Origin: a virus
Length of the DNA: 64,000 nucleotides
Strand: one strand, 5' to 3'
Virus record (IMG/VR): IMGVR_UViG_3300042398_000969
Coordinates: 105,423-169,422 of that record
Both the position numbers and the translations under genes were made by a program. Positions 60,088-60,101 of this stretch are shown here, piece by piece. Below the pieces are notes generated by a model, which saw only the letters and a list, made by a program, of their open reading frames with translations, was not told where the DNA came from and did not search any database. The stretch's first letter is position 1; each line of letters starts with the position of its first letter.

Positions 60088-60101
60088 GTTCCACGTGGAA
60101 C
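60088..60101. other. parS-like palindrome GTTCCACGTGGAAC
   Basis: A perfect 14-bp palindrome matches the core of the bacterial parS consensus (GTTYCACGTGRAAC), bound by chromosomal ParB/Spo0J. It sits in the spacer between the tail-tube terminator and the chaperone gene. The outer bases (G...G) do not match the T...A of the 16-bp consensus. No other copy and no ParB gene were seen in the window. Confidence 0.5.

Follow-up and report, generated by a model that had tools for sequence, protein, structure and literature searches.

The DNA stretch analysed here, referred to as the window, comprises 64,000 nucleotides (positions 105,423 to 169,422) of the IMG/VR virus record IMGVR_UViG_3300042398_000969 and carries, at positions 60088..60101 (no strand assigned), the exact 14-mer palindrome GTTCCACGTGGAAC. 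An earlier note had described this perfect palindrome as an exact match to the core of parS, the site bound by bacterial ParB; it is present as described and is identical to the 14-bp core. The locus raises the question of whether a phage keeps a parS-type site in its late region, and which protein, if any, would read it.

ParB, a clamp that depends on CTP, is loaded at parS and from there slides onto the flanking DNA; it recruits ParA and SMC. To our knowledge, the known use of ParABS by phages is that of plasmid-prophages with their own parABS. Phage parABS cassettes have been described (PMC7157519) and surveys of the ParB fold include phages (PMC12704722); a literature search, with subscription journals and preprints outside its scope, found no report of an orphan host-type parS in phages without ParB.

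Site and genomic surroundings

A scan of the full virus record (169,422 bases), as suggested in the earlier note, found GTTCCACGTGGAAC as a single copy and no other match with up to two mismatches. Within the window, the locus is the sole match even at up to three mismatches, for which shuffled sequence gives 1.2 matches per window; scaled by the count of words with up to three mismatches, the expectation for an exact match is about 1e-4 per window, which bears out the earlier statement that a chance match is very unlikely.

The palindrome is located inside the 140-bp gap (60021..60160, minus strand; slot 1) that separates the minus-strand genes for the tail tube protein (60161..60649; phrog_4542 match in PHROG) and for a baseplate hub-like protein (59280..60020; phrog_150 match in PHROG). 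A hairpin resembling an intrinsic terminator (60105..60135, minus strand; RNA fold z = -4.4) is found 3' of the tail-tube gene and directly upstream, on the minus strand, of the palindrome, which lies outside genes and after a terminator-like element, as had been noted. Downstream of the palindrome and before the hub gene, an AT-rich promoter-like stretch (TTGA...TATACTTATATTA; 60043..60072, minus strand) was recognized by eye, and recurs in relatives. The site in the window has an intact central CACGTG; its outer bases on the plus strand are G-GTTCCACGTGGAAC-G, and the T...A of the 16-bp parS is unmatched.

On the other side of the tail-tube gene, the gap (60650..60942, minus strand; slot 2) to the tail sheath protein gene (60943..63780, minus strand; phrog_23 match) is empty of such a site in this phage. 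This gap is unusually long (approx. 290 bp) and rich in short repeats scattered along it, with TTAGTATATTAGTA in this phage and CCCAGTATACTGGAACTAG / TACTAGTATTTATT in its relatives; at its end, ahead of the tube gene, is a promoter-like stretch that is conserved.

Conservation in related phages

Relatives were collected as tail-tube homologues in IMG/VR (80 loci), and a dereplicated set of 46 loci was used for motif counts; the occupancy of the two gaps was tallied over 81 loci. Many relatives have a variant of the parS-like sequence at the corresponding position of slot 1, for example GTTCCATGTGGAAC, GTTCCACGTGAAAC, GTTCCACATGGAAC and TTTCCACGTGGAAC, and others carry the exact 14-mer or a variant in the sheath-to-tube gap, approx. 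270 bp upstream of the tube gene. In the 46 dereplicated loci the degenerate motif (up to two mismatches) occurs 35 times, 24 of these intergenic, compared to an average of 1.2 occurrences, 0.03 intergenic, for about 60 permuted palindromes in the same loci. Second matches at this threshold in three genomes (G001, G005 and G010) were discarded, as they are inside open reading frames (ORFs).

At up to two mismatches, a site was found in slot 1 only at 30 of the 81 loci, and in slot 2 only at 29, plus one with slot 1 unseen, i.e. about half of the site-bearing phages each; none of the loci has a site in both gaps, 18 have it in neither, and three were scored as undetermined. The earlier note had named a lack of conservation in relatives among the findings that would speak against its reading; the site is conserved in relatives. 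On a tree of the tube gene, the slot-1 and slot-2 phages are mostly in separate groups, and one slot-2 phage (L142) is placed among the slot-1 phages at a weakly supported fork; from this distribution, the site changed its place during descent.

An operator would be expected at a fixed position to one promoter or gene, whereas this site is found in one or the other of two gaps, next to different genes. A single site that is kept while the adjoining gene changes is unlike an operator or a gene-specific RNA, and is characteristic of a cis element that belongs to the replicon as a whole. In some of the slot-2 sites of the relatives L157-L166 and L192/L196, a third half-site is found directly upstream (GTGGAACGTTCCACGTGGAAC; GTTCCACATGTTCCACGCGGAAC). 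No comparable site was found in more distant cultured phages (immuto, Mel-JY01, RM378, pT24, phiST, Lak-B5), and a BLAST search of cultured phages with the surroundings of two other sites gave no match.

Base pattern of the sites

Among 39 distinct sites of this clade, T3, C5, A6, A12 and A13 are invariant, and the variation is mainly in the centre (positions 7-9): positions 8-9 are CG, CA or TG, and in single clades GC, GG, GA or AA, such that the central CACGTG is absent from many of the sites. G1 is present in 38 of the 39 and A6 in all 39 (its mirror base T9 in 32); it is by G1 and A6 that ParB tells parS from the Noc binding site (NBS; PMC7383237). At least one intact half-parS, GTTYCAC, was counted in 36 of the 39 sites by reading of the variant table, and one clade (GCTCCACGTAGAAC) has no intact half-site; a half-parS of this kind is bound alone by ParB of Pseudomonas aeruginosa (PMC10419367).

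The variable centres are unlike the chromosomal parS of the likely host phylum, and the site is therefore termed parS-like, and not strictly parS. Of the earlier parS interpretation, the parts that stand are a conserved site of parS type that acts at the level of DNA; the strict identity with the parS core holds for the window but is lost in relatives with a variable centre.

Sites of parS type across IMG/VR

Scans of IMG/VR for exact matches to three parS-type 16-mers (TGTTCCACGTGGAACA, TGTTCCACGTGAAACA and TGTTCCACATGGAACA) gave at least 120 loci each; the matches to TGTTCCACGTGGAACA contain the T1 and A16 of the full 16-mer, unlike the site in the window. Among the matches listed, and with 'intergenic' as defined by a crude ORF caller, TGTTCCACGTGGAACA is intergenic at 48 of 120 distinct sites (40%, background 11%; p = 5e-16), TGTTCCACGTGAAACA at 38 of 133 (29%, background 10%; p = 5e-10), and TGTTCCACATGGAACA at 49 of 100 (49%, background 10%; p = 1e-23). 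Of the controls, TGTTCCTCGAGGAACA, which is changed at A6 and retains the same stem, was found at six loci, all inside ORFs; the reversed 16-mer was found at none, and the reversed 14-mer at 42 (3 of 39 distinct sites intergenic). The genes adjoining the sites include those for phage head proteins and for a phage DNA polymerase, and many have no family match; the motif is shared by at least one phage lineage unrelated to this one, whose major head protein matches phrog_371, and by contigs that vary greatly in GC content. Sites of this type extend far beyond the present phage.

Some of the viral contigs may include host DNA; a suspicious case is L600 (116,662 bases, 65% GC), a 'viral' contig with 11 copies of TGTTCCACGTGAAACA within approx. 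14 kb and no ParB_N match, which is an unusual array of parS sites or else a piece of chromosome that was binned wrongly.

A palindrome present by chance and without function would account for one short site per genome and for its absence from the distant cultured relatives. This reading is ruled out for all practical purposes by the near absence of the permuted controls, by the conservation of a single site at two mutually exclusive positions, and by the intergenic enrichment of all three 16-mers.

A second alternative is that a different DNA-binding dimer, either phage-encoded or a widely conserved host regulator, reads GTTCCA-YR-TGGAAC, that its likeness to parS is convergence, and that the site acts as a terminator-proximal operator, an insulator, or a replication or recombination signal. 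Such a reader would fit the tolerance for changes in the centre, which is unlike chromosomal parS in Bacteroidota, and the frequent location of the site near a terminator, with a promoter-like stretch downstream; many proteins of the window have no family match. The movement of the site between gaps argues against it, since a moving site is not tied to one promoter, as does the presence of the motif in the phrog_371 lineage and on contigs of very different GC content: a common reader would most simply be a host protein of near-universal occurrence, and this is the very site of ParB. We consider this alternative rather unlikely, though one to be taken seriously.

DNA element versus RNA hairpin

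The site in the window, which follows the terminator, folds into a stem of 5 bp with a loop of 4 nt, and could represent an RNA hairpin in late transcripts, i.e. a back-up terminator, a 3'-end stabilizer or an RNase site; the earlier note had named a mere RNA hairpin as another finding that would speak against its reading. In several clades, however, the putative stem is not kept: sense-strand variants (GTTCC/GAAAC, GCTCC/GGAAC, GCTCC/AGAAC) are broken by C.A pairs, with mismatches at stem pairs 2, 4 and 5, and the RNA hairpin is disfavoured because such stem-breaking changes are common in the tail clade. Furthermore, the sequence of the arms is conserved where pairing alone would do, and the A6-changed control, which keeps the stem and differs in the loop, shows no enrichment. 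Similarly, the asymmetric TGTTCCACGTGAAACA in IMG/VR is not biased to the orientation that allows wobble pairing with respect to co-directional neighbours (16 in the stem-breaking and 7 in the wobble orientation).

Other observations are in favour of RNA. In the phages with the phrog_371 head protein, the flanking lower stem appears to covary by eye (TAA/TTA, TGA/TCA, AGA/TCT), and the site there is therefore embedded in an RNA-forming hairpin; in the relatives L169-L177, the site is within the loop of a terminator-like hairpin. Against RNA, the sole Rfam match near such a site is a separate element, Mu-gpT-DE. Taken together, an RNA-only element is improbable, and the base requirements are those of a DNA site.

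The Mu-gpT-DE matches are found at L507:515-567 and L098:8806-8858, close to a parS-like site downstream of the phrog_371 head-protein gene. In this group of phages, the site precedes the terminator in some members and follows it in others.

ParB genes and probable host

A cognate parB on the same replicon, as for a parS in the usual sense, was not detected in the phage records scanned: there was no match to ParB_N (PF02195) in this phage (G000) and 15 relatives, and no match to HTH_ParB (PF17762) in nine viral records, for which a bacterial control genome gave a strong match; the viral records may be incomplete. The option that the phage has its own partition gene elsewhere, also raised in the earlier note, consequently lost ground, and a phage-encoded ParB was dropped as a candidate. 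Across parS-bearing viral contigs, ParB_N is no commoner (4 of 44) than in control contigs (3 of 25).

The only ParB_N match examined, on contig L474, is a fusion of ParB_N to a methyltransferase without a match to the ParB helix-turn-helix, and hence no evidence for a phage partition ParB. This contig has three parS-type palindromes, two canonical and one TG-centred, and TTGTACGTAGAACAA within 90 bp (L474:8487-8576); the TG-centred site is within 75 bp of the two canonical parS.

The host is probably a bacteroidete, as judged by the nearest phage proteins: NrdA is nearest to phages of Tenacibaculum and Cellulophaga, ClpP to uncultured and Prevotella Lak phages, and the tail proteins to phages of Microcystis and Flavobacterium. 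The window genes at 906-1598, 36395-38839 and 38848-39825 encode ClpP and the class Ia ribonucleotide reductase NrdA/NrdB. In Bacteroidota, GTTYCACGTGRAAC is clustered on the chromosomes, frequently with at least two copies in a few kb; of the genomes examined, one set was fetched by the motif and the other drawn from the phylum around one of these. Among 198 Bacteroidota chromosomes, the CA centre is no commoner than by chance (5 genomes, compared to 4 for the reversed control); therefore, if the host is a bacteroidete, many of the clade sites are not its canonical parS. In favour of an equation with parS, CA/TG-centred sites cluster with a canonical parS within 67 kb on the 11.8-Mb chromosome of Sulfidibacter, as the TG-centred site does on contig L474.

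Proposed role of the site

The reading that we favour, at a probability of about 0.58 and on the basis of sequence comparison, is that of an orphan DNA site of parS type: the palindrome would recruit ParB of the host, or titrate it. Since no ParB-type gene was found on the phage, the chromosomal ParB of the host would read the site. The site would represent a single-copy, genome-level cis element, maintained in whichever non-coding gap beside the tail-tube gene can take it, usually behind a terminator, and would function as a ParB loading site served by the host system. As the most likely consequence, replicated phage genomes with one site each would outnumber the few chromosomal parS, and ParB would be drawn from these onto phage DNA, which it may coat or position; possible effects are on host segregation, on the position of the phage genome, and on its compaction through ParA/SMC. 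ParB binding and a benefit from titration or positioning are the parts of this explanation that we infer. The variants with a damaged centre might be weakened loading sites, or be fitted to the ParB of particular hosts. The 18 clade loci without a site in either gap, and the loss of the outer T/A in the window, count against this reading, as do the CA/TG centres common in the clade, the one clade without an intact half-site, and the lack of a comparable site in the more distant cultured phages.

More tentatively, and at slightly less than even odds, orphan parS-type sites may be a widespread cis element of phages, single and intergenic, by which phages without ParB recruit or titrate the host ParB-CTP clamp, perhaps with SMC/ParA. 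If ParB-less phages keep a host-type parS, chromosome segregation of the host would be a target or a tool in infection, and the short motif would help to connect uncultured phages with the ParB types of their hosts.

Comparison with known systems

The 14-bp core of chromosomal parS (ParABS; TGTTYCACGTGRAACA), which is found in P. aeruginosa, P. putida and M. xanthus (PMC7022226), is identical to the site in the window and also to the chromosomal clusters of Bacteroidota, and the base requirements shared with the phage site include A6; the core GTTYCACGTGRAAC is matched exactly in the window, and with up to two mismatches and a variable centre (CG, CA, TG and others) in relatives. The phage site differs in that it is located on a phage with no detected ParB gene, in one copy, and in the late structural region instead of an origin-proximal cluster, as well as in its centre and in the outer T/A lost in the window; clustering near oriC, which does not apply to a phage in the usual sense, is not seen for the single site of the record.

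The NBS (TATTTCCCGGGAAATA) is a sister palindrome that is read by a paralogue of ParB and differs from parS at positions 1 and 6 (PMC7383237); it has A and C at these positions, and a Noc site was rejected for the phage sites with their G1 (38/39) and A6 (39/39). The half-parS of P. aeruginosa ParB (GTTCCAC / GTTTCAC; PMC10419367) is represented by at least one intact heptamer in the 36 of 39 clade sites given above; in the phage sites, however, the second half is almost always largely kept as well, which makes them degenerate full palindromes that are selected to stay in phage genomes. Finally, the phage parABS of plasmid prophages (mycobacteriophage RedRock type, PMC7157519; P1 type) also place a centromere-like site on a phage genome, but in these phages both ParA and ParB are encoded by the phage itself and the sites have other sequences (in RedRock, direct repeats of 8 bp), whereas the site described here is an orphan of the host-chromosome type.
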